Of a DNA stretch of 34,328 bases, positions 800 to 11,773 are shown piece by piece (positions within the stretch are counted from its first letter, which is position 1; each line of letters opens with the position of its first letter). Below the pieces are notes generated by a model. The model worked only from the letters and a program-made list of their open reading frames with translations, was not told the DNA's origin and did not search any database. Position numbers and translations under genes: made by a program. Source of the DNA: an uncultured Bacteroidota bacterium (GTDB taxonomy: Bacteria > Bacteroidota > Bacteroidia > Flavobacteriales > Flavobacteriaceae); NCBI GenBank assembly GCA_902606525.1, contig CACLGW010000011.1:1-34328 (forward strand). The letters run 5' to 3'.

Positions 800-2119
800 C
801 TAGCCACCGATATCTTGGGCAATGCTTAGGGCTTTTCCATCGGAGAGACTTGCAATAAAACAACTAGAGTTTAGTAGTGTTTCATAAAGGGTTTCTCCTA
901 TCATTGGGGTACCCTCTGGAACAAGTGAAAGGATCAAATTATCATGGATGTTTTCTTTTCCCTCGAATCTTCTTACTGAGGCTTCTGTGTAGCAACTAAG
1001 TAAAGATGAAATTGCCCGGTGGCCAACAACTTCCTTTTGTATTACTTCCTTTGATTGATAAATATTTTTTACACTTAAATTAATTATGTCTTCAATTTGT
1101 GCCTTGTATTTACTTTTTTCTAAAAGACTAAATTTAAATGTTCCTGCTAGTATGTCTTCCTCATTGTCAATGAAAATCTTAACTGCATCTTGAATTAAGC
1201 TATTTATAGCTAAAGCTCTCAAATAACTCAATCTTTGTGGCTTGAAGGCCAGCTCTCCATACTTTTTGGTATCAATTTGATCCCTAACTAAGTTGATTAA
1301 ATACTCTAAAGCATAGTCCTCAGAAATCCAACCTAAATTAATGCCATCTTCAAAATCAATTATCGTGTAGCAAATATCATCTGCTGCCTCTACTAGATAA
1401 GTAAGGGGATGTCTTAAAACCTTCCCGTTTTTTACAAGTGATAGTTCTTGAGCAACTTCACTAAAAAAAGATTTTTGGGCTTGAAAATACCCGTATTTTT
1501 TGTCAGCCACGTGGGATGTTGGCTTAATAGGTAAACTTGCTTTAGGATATTTTACAAAGGCACCGAGGGTAGCATAACTGAGTCTTAAACCTCCTGGAGT
1601 TCCTTGACGAGATTCTGCTAAAATTTTTAACCCGTTTGCATTACCCTCAAAATCACATAAGTCTTGATATTGCTCTGAGGTTAGTTTAGACTTATATATT
1701 GCCCCACCTCCAGATTTGAAAAAATGACCAATAGCTTTCTCACCACTATGACCAAAAGGGGGATTACCTATATCATGTGCTAGTGATGCAGCAGCTGTAA
1801 TGGCTCCAAAATCATTAGCTTGATACCCCATAGAGGCATCTAGATGAGGATGTTTATCTAAAATAGCTCGACCTGCCATTCTGCCAATACTTCTACCTAC
1901 CACGGATACTTCTAAACTGTGAGTAAGACGCGTGTGAACAAAATCTGTTTTGGAAAATGGAATAACTTGTGTTTTGTCTTGAAGACTTCTAAAGGCATTT
2001 GAAAATACAATTCTATCATAGTCTACTTCAAAACCTAAACGAAGGTCATTTTGTTCTTTTCTTAAGCGTTTACTTGTGTCACCAAAACGTTTCAAAGATA
2101 ATAATGCTTCCCAATTCAT
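800..2119 (-). CDS. dgt: Deoxyguanosinetriphosphate triphosphohydrolase (dGTPase), HD superfamily
   Basis: RIVFSNAFRSLQDKTQV, HTRLTHSLEVSVVGRSIG, SLAHDIGNPPFGHSGEKAI: classic dGTPase HD motifs. Confidence 0.93.
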   Translation of the reverse strand: MNWEALLSLKRFGDTSKRLRKEQNDLRLGFEVDYDRIVFSNAFRSLQDKTQVIPFSKTDFVHTRLTHSLEVSVVGRSIGRMAGRAILDKHPHLDASMGYQANDFGAITAAASLAHDIGNPPFGHSGEKAIGHFFKSGGGAIYKSKLTSEQYQDLCDFEGNANGLKILAESRQGTPGGLRLSYATLGAFVKYPKASLPIKPTSHVADKKYGYFQAQKSFFSEVAQELSLVKNGKVLRHPLTYLVEAADDICYTIIDFEDGINLGWISEDYALEYLINLVRDQIDTKKYGELAFKPQRLSYLRALAINSLIQDAVKIFIDNEEDILAGTFKFSLLEKSKYKAQIEDIINLSVKNIYQSKEVIQKEVVGHRAISSLLSCYTEASVRRFEGKENIHDNLILSLVPEGTPMIGETLYETLLNSSCFIASLSDGKALSIAQDIGG

Positions 2120-2154
2120 AATTTAAAGTTACCAATCTAAGTTCTAATGTTAAG

Positions 2155-2174
2155 ATAAGTTTATCAAAACTTAT
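2155..2174. repeat. Perfect inverted repeat ATAAGTTT-ATCA-AAACTTAT
   Basis: 8-bp arms, 4-nt spacer, in the divergent intergenic region between dgt and the lipoprotein gene. Confidence 0.5.
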
Positions 2175-2288: not shown

Positions 2289-3614
2289 ATGAAAAAAATC
2301 AAATTTATACCTAGCTTACTTTTTCTCTTAGTCATCACCTTAGGCTGCTCTTCAGACGATGATCCTGTAGTTGAATATGTAACAGTAGTTGAGACTGTTA
2401 CCGAAACTATTACCCAAACAAACACCGTGACAGTTGATCCTTATGCAGATTCAACCCTTGAAGGAAATATAGTTGAAGATACTACTTTAGATGCATCCAA
2501 AATTTGGCTATTAAAGGGGCGTGTAGCTGTTACAGATGGTGTCACTTTAACCATTCCCGCTGGAACAATTATTAAAGCTGCATCTGGAAGTGGTGCTGAT
2601 GCATCAACTCTTATTGTGGCAAGAGGGGGTAAAATGATTGCAGATGGGACCTCGGAAGCTCCTATTATAATGACCTCTGAATCTGATAATATTGAGGTAG
2701 GAGGAACTTACCCAGCTAGTGGTCCTGCTCTAGGTGTAGATACTAGAGGGCTATGGGGTGGACTTTTGATCTTAGGTAAAGCACCTAGTTCTTTTAAAAA
2801 TGATGTTGTAGAAGTTCAAATAGAGGGAATTCCAACATCAGATATTAATGGCCTTTACGGAGGTACTGATCCATCTGACGATTCCGGCTCATTTCAATAT
2901 ATTTCAATTCGTCATGGTGGTGCTGAAATTGGAGAGGGTAATGAAATTAATGGTTTAACTCTAGGTGGTGTTGGAACTGGAACTACAATAAATCATATCG
3001 AAGTTGTTGCAAATGTTGATGACGGAATTGAGTTTTTTGGGGGAACAGTTGACGCATCAAATTTACTAGTCTGGGGACAAGGGGATGATGCAATTGATAT
3101 CGATCAAGCATATTCTGGAACAATCGATGGAGCTTTAGTTGTTTTAACAGCTGCCTCAGACCATGGATTTGAAATTGATGGCCCTGAGGGTTCTGCTCCA
3201 GGAAGATTCACACTCAAAAATGCAACTGTAATTGGAGCAACTGATGATTGTGAGGCAGAAGGTGTTGATGGTGAAATGGCAGACTTTAGAAAAGGAGCTA
3301 CAGGAGATCTTCAAAATATTCTTTTTAAAGATTTTTCTGGTGGTAAAGATGTTGAGCTAGATGCATCTGCTGATGCTGCAACTTATACTGCTGGAACTCT
3401 AACTTTTTTGAATATAGATATTTTACATCCTCTTGATGATAGTGGTGCTGTTTGTTCTGATGTTGAAACTTTAGATAAAATTTTTGACGATAAAGCTGAT
3501 GAGAGCACTTTCGAAGCAGATGCTTCCTCTTTTGCTGAAGTAGTTACCACTCAACAGTCTGGAAATGGACTCGAAGATGAATCAATTTTTCCATGGACCT
3601 TTTATAAAAGATAG
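2289..3614 (+). CDS. Surface-type lipoprotein, acidic, probable parallel beta-helix
   Basis: Lipobox LVITLGC followed by CSSDDD (flavobacterial surface-lipoprotein-like acidic export signal), V/T-rich linker, then G/D/I/V-rich repetitive body (GTIIKA.., GGKMIADGTSEAPIIMTS, NHIEVVANVDDGIEFFGGTV). Confidence 0.75.
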   Translation: MKKIKFIPSLLFLLVITLGCSSDDDPVVEYVTVVETVTETITQTNTVTVDPYADSTLEGNIVEDTTLDASKIWLLKGRVAVTDGVTLTIPAGTIIKAASGSGADASTLIVARGGKMIADGTSEAPIIMTSESDNIEVGGTYPASGPALGVDTRGLWGGLLILGKAPSSFKNDVVEVQIEGIPTSDINGLYGGTDPSDDSGSFQYISIRHGGAEIGEGNEINGLTLGGVGTGTTINHIEVVANVDDGIEFFGGTVDASNLLVWGQGDDAIDIDQAYSGTIDGALVVLTAASDHGFEIDGPEGSAPGRFTLKNATVIGATDDCEAEGVDGEMADFRKGATGDLQNILFKDFSGGKDVELDASADAATYTAGTLTFLNIDILHPLDDSGAVCSDVETLDKIFDDKADESTFEADASSFAEVVTTQQSGNGLEDESIFPWTFYKR

Positions 3615-3636: not shown

Positions 3637-3670
3637 AAATAGTCTGACCCTTTGGTTGGACTATTTTTTT
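3637..3670 (+). terminator. Rho-independent terminator-like hairpin between lipoprotein and TBDT genes
   Basis: AAATAGTC-TG-ACC-CTTT-GGT-TG-GACTATTT followed by TTTT: 8-bp perfect outer stem plus 3-bp inner stem and T-run. Confidence 0.65.
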
Positions 3671-3699
3671 ATTTAATATTTTTAAAAATATATAGTTTA

Positions 3700-6537
3700 A
3701 TGAAATACAGACTAAATTATTTAATCGTTCTCTTTATAGTAGTTGTTTTTAAATCGTTTAGTCAGTATGGAATTACTGGAACCTTAATTGATGGTGACTT
3801 TAACGAGCCTCTTCCCTTTGCCAATGTTTTAGTTAAAGAAACTGGAGATGGAGTTACTTCTGATTTTGATGGTAAGTACAACTTAGATTTACCTGCAGGT
3901 AACTACACTTTAGTTTTTTCATTTGTCGGTTATGAAACTAAAGAAATTACAAATGTTAATGTAGGTAATGACCAATATACCATAATCGATATTGTATTAA
4001 ATTCTGTTGCTCAAGGCCTTGAAGAAGTAATTGTAACTGTTGATGCTAGAAGAAATACAGAGTCTTCTGTTTTAGAAATTCAAAGAAAGTCAGCGAGTTT
4101 ATTAGATGGAATTTCAGCTCAAGCTTTTAGAAAAATTGGAGCTAACGATATTGCAAGTGCTGTGAAAAGGGTTCCTGGAGTTTCAGTTCAAGGAGGAAAA
4201 TATGTTTATGTGAGAGGTCTTGGAGACCGATACTCAAAATCCATTCTTAACGGAGTGGACATTCCAGGTTTAGATCCTGACCGAAATACGATTCAAATGG
4301 ATTTATTCCCAACCAATATGCTGTCCAATGTATTAGTCATTAAGTCTGCAAGAGCTGATTTACCAGCTGATTTTACAGGTGGTGTGATTGATATAATCAC
4401 AAAGGACTTCCCCACAAATGAAGAATTTTCTGTCTCAATAAGTACTTCGTTTAATCCAGACATGCATTTTAAAAATAGCTACTTATCTTATGAGGGAGGA
4501 AGAACCGATTTTTTGGGCTACGATGATGGAATAAGGAAAAATAAAATTAATAATTCATTTTTGGGAAATGCATATGATCCAAGATTAAACTCATCAGATT
4601 CTGGACTAACTACCATAAATCTAATATCTAATCAATTTAGTCCTCAAATGGCTCCCGATGACGATACTAGTGGTCTGAATTATAGTTTAGGGATATCATA
4701 TGGCAACCAGTTTAACTTTGAAAATGGACATTCATTTGGATTTTTAGGGTCACTTTCTTACAGGAGAGAGCAAAGTATTTATGAAAATACAGAAGATAAT
4801 ATTTTCAATTTTAGTCCTATCAGAAGTGATTTGAATTTTGAAGAAAATAGACTTCAAACTGGAACTATAGGTGGAGAAAATATTATTGCAAGTGGCTTGT
4901 TCGGGATAACTTATAAAACAACTAATTCAAAATTTAAATTTAATGCTCTACATATCCAAAATGGAGAAAGTACTTCTGGTAGATTTAGACAGCTAACCCG
5001 CTTTTCAGACTTTGTTGATTTTAATAAGTTTAATCTGGAATATAATGAAAGAGCAATTACCAATGGAATTCTTTCTGGACTTCATAATCTTAAGAATGCT
5101 AATTTAAAAGTAGAATGGACAATTTCTGCAACCCAAGCCAAAGTTCATGACAAAGATGTTAGAAATACAACTTTTCAAGATGAGGAAGGCGTATTTAGTT
5201 TTCAAGAGAATACAGAGCCTAAGCGAATTTGGAGAACCCTAGATGAAGATAATTTTATTGGCAAATTAGATCTAACAAAACGTTTTAAATTTTTAAAAGA
5301 AGACGCTGTTTTAAAGTTCGGTTTATACAGTACTTTAAAAGAGAGGGATTTTTCGATTGCTCAATATTCTGTTAGCAGCAACTTCACCTCTGAGCGTGAT
5401 TGGGCAAATTATGGAGGTGATCCCAATCAACTATTTAATCCTTTAAATCTTATTTCACCGACAAATGACAGAGGAACATATATAAATCCTCAAACTACTA
5501 TTAGACAAGATGCAAATATTTTTAATGCGCGTCAACAGAATTTAGCGGGATATGTTTCCAACGAATTTAACATTACACCTAAACTAAAATCAATTATTGG
5601 ATTCCGATTCGAAAATTATCAGGTGTTCTATACAGGTGAGAATAGCCAACTTGGACAAGTTTTTAATGACCAGAAGATCATTAATGAAAACAATCTATTC
5701 CCATCATCAAATTTTATATTTAATCTTAAAGAAAATAAAAATATACGCTTTGCTTATTCCTTGACCACGGCAAGACCTAGTTTCAAAGAAGCTTCTATTG
5801 CAGAAATCTACGACCCCCTATCTAATTTATTCTTTATTGGAAATATAGATATCAAACCCTCCTATATTGACAACTTTGACCTTCGATACGAAGCATTTGG
5901 AGAAGATGCTCAACTTTTCGCAGCAAGTTTATTTTATAAAAGCCTCACCGATCCCATTGAGATTGGATTTGTAGCAGCCTCTACATCTAATTATAAGCCA
6001 TTAAATCTTGAAAACGCTAATGTATTTGGTGTTGAATTAGAATTGAGAAAAAAAATTACTGATTGGATACCTGGTTTGAGAAATCTTAATTTAAATTTTA
6101 ATGGATCCTACATTATATCTGATGAAAAATACAGCGAAGACGAACTTAAATTAAGAACATTAGGACTAAGAGAAGGAGAAACACTAGGAACTTCAAGACA
6201 ATTACAAGGTCAATCACCTTACCTTATAAATACTGGGATTGACTACAATCAAACTGAAAAAGGTATTCAAGCTGGGCTCTACTATAATGTTCAAGGCAAG
6301 ACCTTAGAGGTAGTTGGAGATGGCTTTTATCCTGATGTATATACAATGCCTTTTCAAAGTCTTAATTTTAACTTAATTAAACAATTCAAAAATAATACTA
6401 GTTTAACCTTGAGGGTTAACAATATTTTAGATGATGAAAGAGAAAGCTTATTTGAGGGTTATGGAGGAATAACCGAGTATTTTAGATTAAGACATATTGG
6501 GAGAACCTTTTCCCTAGGCTACTCTATTAAATTTTAA
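3700..6537 (+). CDS. TonB-dependent receptor with N-terminal carboxypeptidase-regulatory-like domain
   Basis: Signal peptide MKYRLNYLIVLFIVVVFKSFSQ, ITGTLIDGDFNEPLPFANVLVKETGDGVTSDFDGKYNLDLPAG, plug NDIASAVKRVPGVSVQGGKYVYVRGLGDRYSKSILNGVDIPG, C-terminal barrel ending GYSIKF. The ORF-track start (3652, TTG) lies inside the hairpin loop; ATG 3700 is preferred. Confidence 0.88.
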   Translation: MKYRLNYLIVLFIVVVFKSFSQYGITGTLIDGDFNEPLPFANVLVKETGDGVTSDFDGKYNLDLPAGNYTLVFSFVGYETKEITNVNVGNDQYTIIDIVLNSVAQGLEEVIVTVDARRNTESSVLEIQRKSASLLDGISAQAFRKIGANDIASAVKRVPGVSVQGGKYVYVRGLGDRYSKSILNGVDIPGLDPDRNTIQMDLFPTNMLSNVLVIKSARADLPADFTGGVIDIITKDFPTNEEFSVSISTSFNPDMHFKNSYLSYEGGRTDFLGYDDGIRKNKINNSFLGNAYDPRLNSSDSGLTTINLISNQFSPQMAPDDDTSGLNYSLGISYGNQFNFENGHSFGFLGSLSYRREQSIYENTEDNIFNFSPIRSDLNFEENRLQTGTIGGENIIASGLFGITYKTTNSKFKFNALHIQNGESTSGRFRQLTRFSDFVDFNKFNLEYNERAITNGILSGLHNLKNANLKVEWTISATQAKVHDKDVRNTTFQDEEGVFSFQENTEPKRIWRTLDEDNFIGKLDLTKRFKFLKEDAVLKFGLYSTLKERDFSIAQYSVSSNFTSERDWANYGGDPNQLFNPLNLISPTNDRGTYINPQTTIRQDANIFNARQQNLAGYVSNEFNITPKLKSIIGFRFENYQVFYTGENSQLGQVFNDQKIINENNLFPSSNFIFNLKENKNIRFAYSLTTARPSFKEASIAEIYDPLSNLFFIGNIDIKPSYIDNFDLRYEAFGEDAQLFAASLFYKSLTDPIEIGFVAASTSNYKPLNLENANVFGVELELRKKITDWIPGLRNLNLNFNGSYIISDEKYSEDELKLRTLGLREGETLGTSRQLQGQSPYLINTGIDYNQTEKGIQAGLYYNVQGKTLEVVGDGFYPDVYTMPFQSLNFNLIKQFKNNTSLTLRVNNILDDERESLFEGYGGITEYFRLRHIGRTFSLGYSIKF

Positions 6538-6553
6538 TAACTTCATTTGCTAA

Positions 6554-8821
6554 ATGGAGAACCCTTATTTATATATAGTTATCCTGCTCAGCATATTGGC
6601 TGTAGGTGATTTAATTGTTGGGGTGAGTAATGATGCTGTAAACTTTTTAAATTCAGCTATTGGTTCCAAAGTATTCTCATTTAGAAACATCATGATTTTT
6701 GCAAGCGTTGGTATTATGTTTGGAGCTGTGTCCTCAAGCGGAATGATGGAGGTTGCCAGAAAAGGAATATTTAATCCTAGTGAATTTTATTTTGATGAAA
6801 TCATATTCATTTTTATGGCAGTTATGATGACCGATATCCTTTTATTGGATTTTTTCAATACACTTGGTCTGCCCACTTCCACAACAGTATCAATTGTTTT
6901 CGAATTACTTGGGGCGGCAGTAGTAATGGCGGTGCTTAAAATTATTGAATCAAATCAATTACTCTCCGATTTAGGTAATTATATTAATACTGAAAAAGCT
7001 ACTCAAATCATTTTAGGTATTTTACTTTCTGTGTTTATTGCATTTACAATTGGTGCTATAATTCAATGGATTTCAAGAATTATTTTCAGCTTCGAATTTG
7101 AAAAAAAATCTATTTGGCTTAATGGCTTGTTTGGTGGTATAGCATTAGCTGCAATATTTAATTTTATTTTAATTAAAGGGATTAAAGGAACACCTTATTC
7201 AAACATGGAACTTGAGCTACTTAGTGGGCAAACTATCAACAGTTTCATTGAAAATAATATTTTGACTGTTCAACTTTTCAGTTTTATTTTTTGGTACTTG
7301 TGCTCCTATTTGATGATTTCCCTTCTAAAATGGGATATTTATAAAGTTATTATTGGAGTAGGAACTTTTGCTTTGGCTTTAGCTTTTGCAGGAAATGATT
7401 TAGTTAATTTCATTGGGGTCCCTATTGCTGCTTTTCAATCCTATGAAGCATGGGTGAGTTCTGGTGTTGGAGCTGAAAGTTTTAACATGACCTTATTAAG
7501 TGAACGGGTTCCAACCCCCACCATTTTCTTATTCATATCAGGAATGATTATGATTTTAACTCTTTGGTTTTCCTCTAAAGCAAAAAAAGTAGTAAAAACG
7601 TCTTTAGATTTATCAAATCAATATGATACAAAAGAACGTTTTGAACCAAACTTTCTCTCTAGAGGTTTGGTCCGTTTTTTTATTTATATCAATGCTCAAA
7701 TAAAAAAAGTAATTCCAGAACGTTATTTCTTAACAATAGATAATTCTTTTAAGCGAATTCCAATATCTAAAAATCAAAGTATTTCTAATAGTCCTGAATT
7801 TGACAAACTCAGAGCAAGTATCAACCTTATAGTTGCAGCTGTATTGATTTCATTGGCTACTTCTTTAAAGCTTCCTTTGTCGACTACTTATGTGACCTTT
7901 ATGGTTACCATGGGAACTTCATTGGCTGATCGTGCCTGGAGTTCTGATAGTGCTGTTTATCGTGTATCAGGTGTTTTAAATGTAATTGCAGGATGGTTTT
8001 TAACTGCCGTTAGTGCTTTTACAGTTGGAGGGATCATAGTATATCTTCTTTATATCGGAGGAGTTCAAGTTGTAGCTATCATCATGTTTATTATTCTTTT
8101 AATTATAGGAAAGAATTATTTAAGTCATAAAAAACAAAATAAAGAAGCTATAAAAGAAGAACAAGCTCTTATTATAGAAAGTAACTCGTATCAAGGTGTT
8201 ATCGATGAAACAGGAGCGACCATTGAGGTTGTATTGAAAAAAAGTTTTAAAATATATCAATTATTAATTTCGGGGCTTTCTAAAAATGAAATTCAAGATT
8301 TGGAAAAAGCGAAAAAAAATGCTAAAAAACTCTCCAAACAGATTGATGTCCTCAAAGATGACCTTTTTTACTTTATTCGAAACTTAGAAGAAAGTTCAGT
8401 CTCAGCTAGTACATTTTATATTGAGTTGTTGAGTTATATTCATGATTTATCAGAGGATGTAAGCTATCTGACAAAAATTAGCCATAATCATGTGAATAAT
8501 AATCATAGAAAACTTGCTTTCACACAGATTAAAGAATTGATGTTAATAGAGGATACAATTAAAACGATATTTAAAGAAGGTACAGAAGCCTTTAGTTCAA
8601 CAAAAGATATTTCTGAATTTGAAGATGTCTTACTTGAAAAAAATAACGCATTTAATGTTATTGAATCCAAAATTAATACTCAAATTGAACGTACTCGAGG
8701 AGATGAATCTAGTGCAAAAAATACAACCCTATATTTTAACTTTTTGATACGTACAAAGGATATGATAACGCATAAGTTTGAGTTAGTTGAAAAATATTAT
8801 GGAGTTGTTAGTAAGCTTTAA
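6554..8821 (+). CDS. PiT-family inorganic phosphate transporter with C-terminal PhoU-like (DUF47-type) helical domain
   Basis: GVSNDAVNFLNSAIGSKV and GNDLVNFIGVPIAA repeats, LPTSTTVSIVFELLGAA / LPLSTTYVTFMVTMGTSLA, then a ~220-aa helical tail typical of PhoU-like fusions. Confidence 0.85.
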   Translation: MENPYLYIVILLSILAVGDLIVGVSNDAVNFLNSAIGSKVFSFRNIMIFASVGIMFGAVSSSGMMEVARKGIFNPSEFYFDEIIFIFMAVMMTDILLLDFFNTLGLPTSTTVSIVFELLGAAVVMAVLKIIESNQLLSDLGNYINTEKATQIILGILLSVFIAFTIGAIIQWISRIIFSFEFEKKSIWLNGLFGGIALAAIFNFILIKGIKGTPYSNMELELLSGQTINSFIENNILTVQLFSFIFWYLCSYLMISLLKWDIYKVIIGVGTFALALAFAGNDLVNFIGVPIAAFQSYEAWVSSGVGAESFNMTLLSERVPTPTIFLFISGMIMILTLWFSSKAKKVVKTSLDLSNQYDTKERFEPNFLSRGLVRFFIYINAQIKKVIPERYFLTIDNSFKRIPISKNQSISNSPEFDKLRASINLIVAAVLISLATSLKLPLSTTYVTFMVTMGTSLADRAWSSDSAVYRVSGVLNVIAGWFLTAVSAFTVGGIIVYLLYIGGVQVVAIIMFIILLIIGKNYLSHKKQNKEAIKEEQALIIESNSYQGVIDETGATIEVVLKKSFKIYQLLISGLSKNEIQDLEKAKKNAKKLSKQIDVLKDDLFYFIRNLEESSVSASTFYIELLSYIHDLSEDVSYLTKISHNHVNNNHRKLAFTQIKELMLIEDTIKTIFKEGTEAFSSTKDISEFEDVLLEKNNAFNVIESKINTQIERTRGDESSAKNTTLYFNFLIRTKDMITHKFELVEKYYGVVSKL

Positions 8822-8824
8822 CTA

Positions 8825-9184
8825 CTAGTCATCTTTGGAAGCCAGTGACTCAACTTTATCCCATTTAGTTGCGCTTTGGACAATGTTATCCTTATAGTCG
8901 ACTTCGATAAGTATTCCCTCGTTCCAAAAAAACCAACGATCTGTTTTTTTCCCTTTGTCATAAACACCCTTGGAGAGTTTAATCCCCTGAGAGTTATAGC
9001 TCATCCAAATACCATGATTTTTTCCATCTAAAAAATATCCCGTTTGAGAAAGTATACCATTATCATGATATTCTTCAAACTTGATTATTTCTCCCTGTTG
9101 AGTAAGGATTCTTTTTGGTTTTTTGTCTTGGCCCAAAGATGATCCAAAAGTGAAGAAAATTATATAAATGAAATATTTTTTCAT
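8825..9184 (-). CDS. Small secreted MORN-like / YwqK-type repeat protein
   Basis: Signal peptide MKKYFIYIIFFTFGSSLGQ then YHDNGILSQTGYFLDGKNHGIWMSYNSQGIKLSKGVYDKGKKTDRWFFWNEG. Start ATG at 9184 preferred over 9199. Confidence 0.7.
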   Translation of the reverse strand: MKKYFIYIIFFTFGSSLGQDKKPKRILTQQGEIIKFEEYHDNGILSQTGYFLDGKNHGIWMSYNSQGIKLSKGVYDKGKKTDRWFFWNEGILIEVDYKDNIVQSATKWDKVESLASKDD

Positions 9185-9214
9185 GGTTATATTTCGCATT
9201 TGTTAATACGAATA

Positions 9215-9269
9215 TAACATTTAATTTCAATTCACGTAACATTTACATAACATTAATTTAACATAAAGG
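9215..9269. promoter_or_regulatory. 11-bp-phased direct-repeat tract (TAACAT x4) upstream of the MORN gene
   Basis: TAACAT at 9215, 9237, 9248 and 9259: intervals 22, 11, 11. The skipped register (9226) reads TTCAAT. Confidence 0.55.
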
Positions 9270-9337: not shown

Positions 9338-11773
9338 TTAAGATCCACACATCAAACAGTCATCATCCTCACTTTCTTTTGCCTGTGAGAGCATTTGTTT
9401 TAACTCCTCTGGTGACAGAGTTTCTACTGGCAAAGAAGTTGATTCTGATTTTGACGAAGTAACTGCCACAGCTTTTGCTGCTGATTCTATTTCGGGAGCC
9501 TTTGCCTTGTTATCGAGAGTAAATTTAATAGCATCAACTGCAGATTTTGTTCTCAGATAATACATCCCAGTTTTGAGACCAGATTTCCATCCGTAAAAAT
9601 GCATGGAGGTTAATTTTGCCATTGTCGCACCTTCCATGAATAAATTTAGAGATTGAGATTGATCAATAAAATATCCACGGTGACGGGACATGTCTATGAT
9701 ATCTTTCATACTCATTTCCCAAACAGTGCGATACAGCTCTTTAATGTCATCTGGAATATTATCAATATTTTGAATCGATCCATTGTTACGCATCAATTCC
9801 TGCTTCATATCTTCATTCCACAAACCTCTTTCAACAAGATCCTCTAACAAATGCTTGTTAACCACAATAAATTCTCCAGAGAGTACTCGCCTTGTATAAA
9901 TATTAGATGTATATGGCTCAAAGCATTCGTTGTTTCCAAGAATCTGAGAAGTACTCGCCGTAGGCATAGGTGCCACTAAAAGTGAGTTTCGAACCCCATG
10001 CTTTTTAACAGTTTTTCGAAGTGCTAGCCAGTCCCAACGCCCACTAAGTTCTTTATCTTTTATGCCCCAAAGGTTATGTTGGAATTCACCTTCTGACATA
10101 GGTGATCCTTTGTATGTTTCGTATGGGCCTTCTTTTTTTGCTTCTTCTGCTGATGCAGTAACTGCAGCAAAGTAAAGCGTTTCAAAAATATCTTGGTTTA
10201 ACTCTTTAGCTTTTTCAGAAGTAAAAGGCAAGCGTAACATAATAAAAGTATCTGCTAAACCTTGAACACCTAAACCAATTGGACGATGTCTAAAATTTGA
10301 GTTTTCAGCTTCCTTAACTGGATAGTAGTTACGGTCAATGACACGGTTGAGATTTTTAGTTACTCTAACGGTAACATCAAAAAGAGATTGGTGATCAAAC
10401 TCTCCGTCTTTTATAAACATTGGTAAAGCAATTGATGCCAAGTTACATACGGCAATTTCGTCAGCTGAAGTGTATTCTAGGATTTCTGTACACAAGTTAG
10501 ATGAACGTATAGTTCCTAAATTTTTTTGGTTTGACTTTCGATTTGCTGAATCCTTATAAAGCATGTATGGTGTGCCTGTCTCAATTTGTGACTCTAATAT
10601 TTTCTCCCAAAGATCTCTAGCTTTAATGGTTTTTCTACCTCGACCCTCCGATTCATATTTGAGGTATAACTGGTCAAACTCATCACCATGAACATTATAA
10701 AGATCAGGACACTCATTGGGACACATTAAAGTCCATTCAGCATTTTCTTCTACACGTTTCATAAAAAGATCTGGAGTCCACATTGCATAAAACAAATCAC
10801 GGGCGCGCATTTCTTCTTTTCCATGATTCTTTTTTAATTCCAAAAAGTCAAATATATCAGCGTGCCATGGCTCTACATAAATAGCAAATGAACCTTTTCT
10901 TTTCCCCCCACCTTGGTCTACATAACGAGCTGTATCGTTAAAGACTCGTAACATTGGCACAATACCATTTGAGGTACCGTTTGTTCCGGCAATGTAGGAG
11001 CCCGTAGCTCTAATATTGTGAATAGATAATCCAATTCCCCCAGCAGACTGAGAAATTTTTGCGGTTTGTTTTAAAGTATCATAAATCCCATCTATACTAT
11101 CATCCTTCATAGTCAAAAGGAAACATGAGGACATTTGTGGCTTAGGAGTACCTGAGTTAAAGAGTGTTGGAGTAGCATGAGTGAAATATCGCTTAGACAT
11201 CAACTCATAAGTTTCTAATGCTGATTCAATATCATTTAAATGAATACCAATAGAAACTCGCATCAGCATATGTTGAGGTCTCTCAACGATTTTTCCATTA
11301 AGTTTCAAGAGATAAGAACGTTCTAATGTTTTAAATCCAAAGAAATCATATCCAAAATCACGATTATAAATTATACTTGAGTCTAATTTATTTGCATTCT
11401 TTTTAATTATTTTGTATACCTCATCAGAGAGTAGAGGAGCTTCTTTTCCAGTACGTGTATTGACATAAGTATACAAGTCTTTCATGGTTTCAGAAAAAGA
11501 TTTTTTTGTGTTTTTATGTAAGTTGGAAACTGAGATTCGTGCTGCTAGCTTTGCATAGTCAGGGTGAGTTGTAGTCATAGTAGCTGCAATCTCAGCAGCA
11601 AGATTATCCAATTCAGAAGTAGTTACACCGTCATACAGCCCTTCAATCACACGCATTGCTACACGTACAGGATCAACAAGAGGGTTAAGACCATAATTCA
11701 GCTTACGAATTCGGGCTGTGATTTTATCGAACATGATTGGCTCTTTTCGGCCATCTCTTTTAACTACGAACAT
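9338..11773 (-). CDS. nrdA: Ribonucleoside-diphosphate reductase alpha subunit, class Ia
   Basis: N-terminal ATP cone ([27 protein letters not shown]), [69 protein letters not shown]-terminal CLMCGS. Confidence 0.97.

Follow-up and report, generated by a model that had tools for sequence, protein, structure and literature searches.

A conserved tandem-repeat operator upstream of a MORN-like gene in Flavobacteriaceae: a probable Pho-type site for a PhoB-like regulator

In the window, the whole 34,328-nucleotide stretch of DNA that was analysed, the hexamer TAACAT occurs at 9215, 9237, 9248 and 9259 upstream of a gene for a small secreted MORN-like protein, with all four copies on one 11-bp register, just as the initial annotation had read them. 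Judged by their conservation among relatives, the repeats are a real control site and three of the hexamers (9237, 9248 and 9259) form its operator. The operator is conserved, it keeps a fixed distance from the core promoter, and it recurs computationally at phoB1, which encodes a PhoB-like regulator of the OmpR family, and at phosphate genes. We consider it likely that the operator is a Pho-type tandem site for phoB1 and that the MORN-like gene belongs to a phosphate-acquisition regulon. Binding by phoB1, phosphate as the signal and activation as the outcome are the parts of this reading that we infer.

An operator at a fixed distance from the promoter

The operator's target, the MORN-like gene (8825..9184, 119 aa, with an in-frame alternative start at 9199), lies on the minus strand, so the repeat reads ATGTTA in the gene's own direction. 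Its upstream neighbour in the genus is nrdA, the ribonucleotide reductase large subunit gene (9338..11773, minus strand, named by inspection). On the coding strand the layout is ATGTTA-N5-ATGTTA-N5-ATGTTA, followed by 20 bp and then by TATATTCG (9209..9216, minus strand), which has the form TAnnTTTG in relatives and which we take to be the flavobacterial -7 consensus. Half-site 1, the upstream-most, is placed at 9259..9264, half-site 2 at 9248..9253 and half-site 3 at 9237..9242, all on the minus strand. The first two are assigned on their retention in aligned orthologous promoters and on the near-maximal information of their G; the third ends 20 bp upstream of TAnnTTTG. The hexamer at 9215-9220 was rejected as a functional half-site: it overlaps the -7 element and is unconserved, relatives retaining at this position only TTA as part of TTAnnTTTG. 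The four-hexamer tract proposed initially is thus narrowed to three conserved half-sites. The skipped slot of the same register at 9226 reads TTCAAT and does not match. It is probably a degenerate fourth repeat (9226..9231, minus strand, ATTGAA), since the wider family has a weaker fourth half-site with the consensus ATGTAA there; this assignment joins the matrix consensus to the sequence of the window.

The region is very AT-rich, and one might suppose that the repeats arose by chance in such DNA, or that they produce a phased curvature with no specific protein involved. We find this hardly credible. Among 3000 versions of the window generated by a second-order Markov model, none contained the exact triple TAACAT-N5-TAACAT-N5-TAACAT. 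Exact TAACAT pairs were observed twice in the window against 0.008 expected under the second-order model, and with up to three mismatches allowed there were 3 matches against 0.18 expected. The chance or curvature reading is refuted by conservation: the sequence itself is kept from genus to genus, and the G of half-sites 1 and 2 hardly varies.

Close relatives of the MORN-like gene were found in a first pass in 15 genomes of the genus, that of the window included. In their upstream regions the three half-sites and the -7 element are kept while the surrounding sequence drifts. Many genomes of the window's own genus do not carry the gene. Searched with a sequence-only profile built from 18 sites, 15 congeneric genomes gave a single strong match apiece. 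All 15 carry the MORN gene, and the remaining congeneric genomes gave no match stronger than E 5e-4. Because several MORN carriers had themselves contributed sites, this result shows consistency only; the independent tests follow. When 84,980 genomes were scanned for the architecture as an exact pattern, with the spacer free from 17 to 23, 17 matches were obtained, all in Bacteroidota, and the spacer was 20 in 15 of them and 19 in 2. A MORN-like gene adjoins 13 of these 17 matches, 11 of which are directly upstream of it; in the other two the box fronts, on the opposite strand, the gene order MORN, PhoB-like regulator, TonB receptor. At E 0.001 or better, the profile matched 194 of 301 Flavobacteriaceae genomes. 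Of the 29 top-scoring loci from genomes other than the window's (L118-L146), all but one precede a MORN gene, in varied neighbourhoods and synteny. A matrix was built from 63 distinct sites; information in it is near-maximal at the G of both half-site 1 and half-site 2, and the weaker fourth half-site appears. The distance from half-site 3 to the -7 element is 20 bp in 63 of 68 sites and 19 bp in 5; this count allowed spacers of 19-21 only, and the genome-wide pattern (17-23) agreed with it. The position of the operator relative to the core promoter is therefore fixed.

These data bear on what the initial annotation had put at stake. It had named loss of the repeats upstream of orthologues, and a frequency no higher than base composition would give, as outcomes that would tell against it; the repeats are conserved there, and in MORN promoters they are far commoner than composition predicts. 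Its proposal of an OmpR/PhoB-type operator gains support from the conserved 11-bp tandem of three exact direct repeats and from the fixed promoter spacing.

The MORN assignment of the target was examined in sequence and in a modelled structure. The window protein matches PF07661 (MORN_2) weakly, with E 0.0089, below the cut-off. Its AlphaFold2 model has eight beta-strands (mean pLDDT 86.9) and, among solved folds, comes closest to the MORN-containing SET7/9 (E 0.0015), with T. brucei MORN1 also among the nearest solved relatives, none of them below E 0.001. Taking the motifs together with the predicted beta-meander fold, we count it as a MORN-repeat protein despite the weak sequence match. The N-terminus is signal-peptide-like, and we guess that the protein acts in the periplasm or at the surface when phosphate is low.

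The operator was also seen before other genes. In Roseivirga (L043, L051 and L057) the full architecture precedes a secreted 286-aa protein with no Pfam match. A second apparent target is a small protein of about 90-105 aa, MKNEDKYCILSVKYSI-like and with no NCBIfam match, at L147, L149, L150, L152, L155, L158 and L163, often near rsmG-like or sodB-like genes.

The candidate regulator

Proteins with an OmpR-type DNA-binding domain number one or two per genome in the genus, with three in one genome and none in another. They are of two kinds, a PhoB-like protein encoded beside a PhoR/PnpS-like kinase, and RprY. The gene of the former, phoB1, is present in 97 of 101 genomes of the family; a search of the window's own assembly, 57% complete, did not reveal it. 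Among NCBIfam models phoB1 matches PhoB of Bacteroides and TIGR02154 best, in each case below the equivalog cut-off, and the best families for the adjacent kinase are PnpS/PhoR, below the PhoR equivalog cut-offs. The recognition helix of phoB1, DRTIDVHIRKLRE, is close to that of E. coli PhoB, DRTVDVHIRRLRK, in solved DNA complexes.

The regulators were compared with a two-half-site matrix trained only on MORN promoters, a match being a score of 8 or more. The box was found in phoB1 promoters of 24 of 30 family genomes, against 0.7 in shuffles, and in rprX promoters of 0 of 29 (0.3 in shuffles). Unselected DNA of the same genomes contained 8 matches in 234 kb, or 0.006 per promoter-sized stretch. 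The box at phoB1, its rarity in unselected DNA and the PhoB-like helix together point to autoregulation of phoB1 and to its product as the protein that binds upstream of the MORN-like gene. We thus name phoB1 as the predicted binder of the MORN operator.

It is quite improbable that the operator is instead bound by RprY, the other OmpR-type regulator of the genus. RprX/RprY are found nearly everywhere in the family, the second-best TAACAT triple of the window's genome stands before rprX, and a TTAACAT-N4-TTAGCAT-like pair is conserved upstream of rprX in much of the genus. This pair made RprY a promising candidate within the genus, and the family-wide test failed: the MORN-trained matrix that recognises most phoB1 promoters recognises none at rprX, where the family has a different, GTTAAGGTTAGGTTAAACG-like repeat.

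The second-best triple is located at G000:C2:48305-48332 (L002), about 100 bp upstream of rprX. Upstream of rprX at L290-L318 there is a distinct conserved element, TTTTAACATTTTTGTTAAGGTTAGGTTAAACG or TTTTGTTAACATTTGGTTAAATG, which suggests an autoregulatory site of RprY.

Boxes at phosphate genes and a candidate small RNA

The window holds a second box, AATGTTAAGATAAGTTTAT (2146..2164, plus strand, score 10.4), the only match of 8 or more in its 34 kb besides the MORN operator. It lies between dgt (800..2119, minus strand), a dGTPase-like gene named by inspection that marks the cluster boundary, and three plus-strand genes. The first (2289..3614) encodes a lipoprotein placed by gene order (PhoBR-TBDT-FII cluster) in the FII class of F. 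johnsoniae and, from this context, a presumed counterpart of Fjoh_0546. The second (3652..6537, start perhaps 3700) encodes a TonB-dependent receptor with PF13715 and PF07715, its F. johnsoniae counterpart being Fjoh_0545. The third (6554..8821) encodes a PiT phosphate transporter (PF01384, E 4.8e-29) and converges on the MORN gene; its long C-terminal extension is presumably DUF47/PhoU-like. Across the family the dgt-divergent intergenic region has a box in 13 of 28 genomes, against 0.4 in shuffles. The MORN box is 4.7-13.4 kb from dgt in 39 of 56 genomes, farther in 9 and on a different contig in 8.

A Porin_O_P gene lies divergently next to the MORN gene in many Flavobacteriaceae; in pst-bearing genomes this porin usually heads the order porin-pstS-pstC-pstA, as it does at most pstS loci. 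Porin promoters carry the box in 13 of 16 genomes, against 0.03 in shuffles. This box is in reverse orientation, has two half-sites and ends 12 bp before TTTGC, inside the core promoter, and it is found in the porin-pst genomes themselves (L260, L261 and L262). A Pho box should stand at phoB and pst promoters, and at phoB1 and the porin it does so in most genomes. At L260-L265, matches of 10 or more other than those at MORN precede porin, pstS, PiT or lipoprotein genes by some 40-100 bp or fall between the TonB receptor and dgt; the match density there is no genome-wide estimate because the loci were chosen around the cluster. Two outlying lineages place MORN in a cluster with a phoB-like gene. 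In L047, phoR1, phoB1 and PiT run divergently from MORN and the box lies in the gap, and in L044 and L045 MORN, a PhoB-like regulator and a TonB receptor stand in line, joined in L044 by the lipoprotein.

The suggestion that the repeats are the local form of a Bacteroidota Pho-like box gains support from these occurrences at phoB1, Porin_O_P and other promoters of the phosphate cluster. For the MORN gene, membership of a phosphate or an envelope-stress regulon had been suggested. The phosphate half is favoured by the boxes of the cluster, with PhoX-like genes lacking one, and envelope stress has gained no separate support.

Several observations count against the phosphate reading. PhoX-like promoters, tried as a positive control, had no convincing box in a small mixed sample with few true PhoX, most matches being other DUF839-type proteins, and L231 alone scored above its shuffles; PhoX-like genes are among the most strongly low-phosphate-induced in F. 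johnsoniae. The small second-target protein (about 92 aa) has no evident phosphate link. The sub-cut-off scores of phoB1 and its kinase, the lack of the MORN gene in many congeneric genomes and that of phoB1 in the window's incomplete assembly weigh on the same side. In F. johnsoniae, OprP (Fjoh_0542) is uninduced at low phosphate (PMC8115612). In favour of the phosphate reading, phoB is induced there at low phosphate, and induction is strong for the FII lipoprotein Fjoh_0546 (FC 9.91) and for Fjoh_0545, the TonB receptor beside PhoBR (FC 8.02) (PMC8115612). Also in favour, in Riemerella deletion of a PhoP/PhoR-like system that is said to be conserved family-wide changes pstS (PMC5399024). There pstS goes up in the mutant, not down, which counts against our preferred explanation, this PhoP/PhoR-like system being a possible orthologue of that of phoB1 (PMC5399024).

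It could accordingly be argued that the PhoB-like regulator binds the operator and senses another cue, such as the state of the envelope or internal phosphate, with MORN a general stress gene beside phosphate genes. The regulator and kinase scores below the PhoB and PhoR equivalog cut-offs are consistent with this, as are the boxless PhoX-like promoters and the second target gene, and the Riemerella authors question whether their own system senses phosphate (PMC5399024). We nevertheless regard another signal as unlikely, for the box recurs at pst, PiT and low-phosphate TonB-receptor genes, and phoB1 is physically clustered with PiT and MORN.

By eye only, phased TTAAC/TTTACA repeats seem to stand before TTTCTTTGC in TonB-receptor or lipoprotein promoters divergent from dgt at L326, L328, L331, L334, L338, L340 and L344-L347. 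They are possibly a B. subtilis-like variant of the box. Likewise by eye, TonB-receptor and small-RNA promoters could be read as TTAACA-type, and we build no claim on that.

This small RNA is a conserved candidate in the MORN-porin intergenic region of relatives (L198-L216; for example L201, on the porin strand). Its parts are a promoter, a transcript carrying TTAGTTTTTGTCGACT and an intrinsic terminator. Beyond the terminator comes the leader of the Porin_O_P(-pst) messenger, in which the complementary CGACAAAAACTAA stands only a few bases ahead of the start codon; the predicted pairing is 13 nt long. The seed TTAGTTTTTGTCGACT has a complementary target downstream in 37 of its 38 occurrences in the sampled loci, the number of distinct loci being somewhat smaller than 38 because a few are opposite-strand reads or duplicate loci. 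The seed does not occur in the window. An Rfam search of the MORN-porin intergenic region and of the window returned nothing at gathering score, and nothing relevant on a flavobacterial porin small RNA was found in the open-access literature.

Proposed mechanism and comparison with known systems

In the mechanism that we propose, phoB1, encoded with a PhoR-like kinase and carried by nearly every Flavobacteriaceae genome, would bind as subunits arranged head-to-tail on one face of the DNA, one for each 11-bp half-site (A)ATGTTA. Their footprint would extend over about -31 to -64 and would reach from just upstream into the -33 region of the MORN promoter, and the fixed 20 bp to the -7 element would be the geometry of an activator touching the sigma factor. 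The predicted regulon comprises MORN, phoB1 as its own target, and the Porin_O_P-pst, PiT and lipoprotein/TonB-receptor genes nearby. At the porin, a reverse-oriented box within the core promoter, 12 bp before TTTG, could mean repression. E. coli PhoB activates or represses according to the position of its site, and activation requires strict spacing (PMC10294691). By analogy, MORN would be activated, and porin and PiT may be repressed.

The same facts leave some room for repression of MORN itself, with half-sites over the -33 region excluding polymerase until relieved under some condition. Half-site 3 overlaps the -33 position, the opposite-orientation box in the porin core promoter suggests that the regulator may repress, and E. 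coli PhoB can act either way (PMC10294691). Simple repression needs no exact spacing, whereas the 20 bp kept across genera suits contact between an activator and polymerase; we give repression of MORN a rather low probability. Activation of MORN by phoB1 can be extended, tentatively, into an undescribed Pho-type code in which ATGTTA, in two orientations and fixed geometries, might activate MORN and phoB1 and repress Porin_O_P-pst and PiT, with the neighbouring antisense small RNA as a second means of controlling the porin-pst messenger. This fuller scheme is a possibility that we hold with much less confidence than the Pho-type site itself.

With a half-site, a spacing and a candidate regulator defined, the phosphate regulon of the whole family becomes computable and open to test, in a phylum whose members are major phosphate scavengers in sea and soil. 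The gene for the secreted MORN protein, which many genera keep together with its operator, becomes a likely phosphate-response gene, and the candidate antisense RNA beside porin-pst would bring regulation by RNA into phosphate uptake in the phylum.

Among described systems, the RprY regulons of Bacteroidota share an OmpR-family regulator present in the same genomes; they differ in that no RprY operator motif was found in the one RprY paper searched and in that the MORN-type box is missing at rprX of the family. The PHO regulon of F. johnsoniae has in common with ours an OprP-type porin, PhoR, PhoB, a TonB receptor and an FII lipoprotein, whereas in the accessible part of that report no binding motif is found and the MORN-like gene is not in Table 1 (PMC8115612). 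We found no description of a Bacteroidota Pho box in the open-access literature.

The likeness to the E. coli Pho box is closer. In both, direct repeats recur every 11 bp with TGTnA as their core on the coding strand, lie just upstream of the -35/-33 region and overlap it, and keep a strict distance to the core promoter. In both the regulator gene carries the box, and the recognition helices are nearly identical. The E. coli half-site has the consensus TGTCA, whereas the flavobacterial one is TGTTA; the flavobacterial operator has three to four half-sites and the E. coli box two; and the flavobacterial promoter is of the TAnnTTTG type, with the box missing at the PhoX-like genes sampled. The B. 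subtilis PhoP box is built of TTAACA-like repeats at 11-bp spacing. It resembles the operator in its TTAACAT on the opposite strand, its spacing, its multiple half-sites and its PhoB/PhoP-type regulator. Compared with activated B. subtilis promoters, the MORN repeats run in the opposite orientation, whereas the porin boxes are B. subtilis-like.
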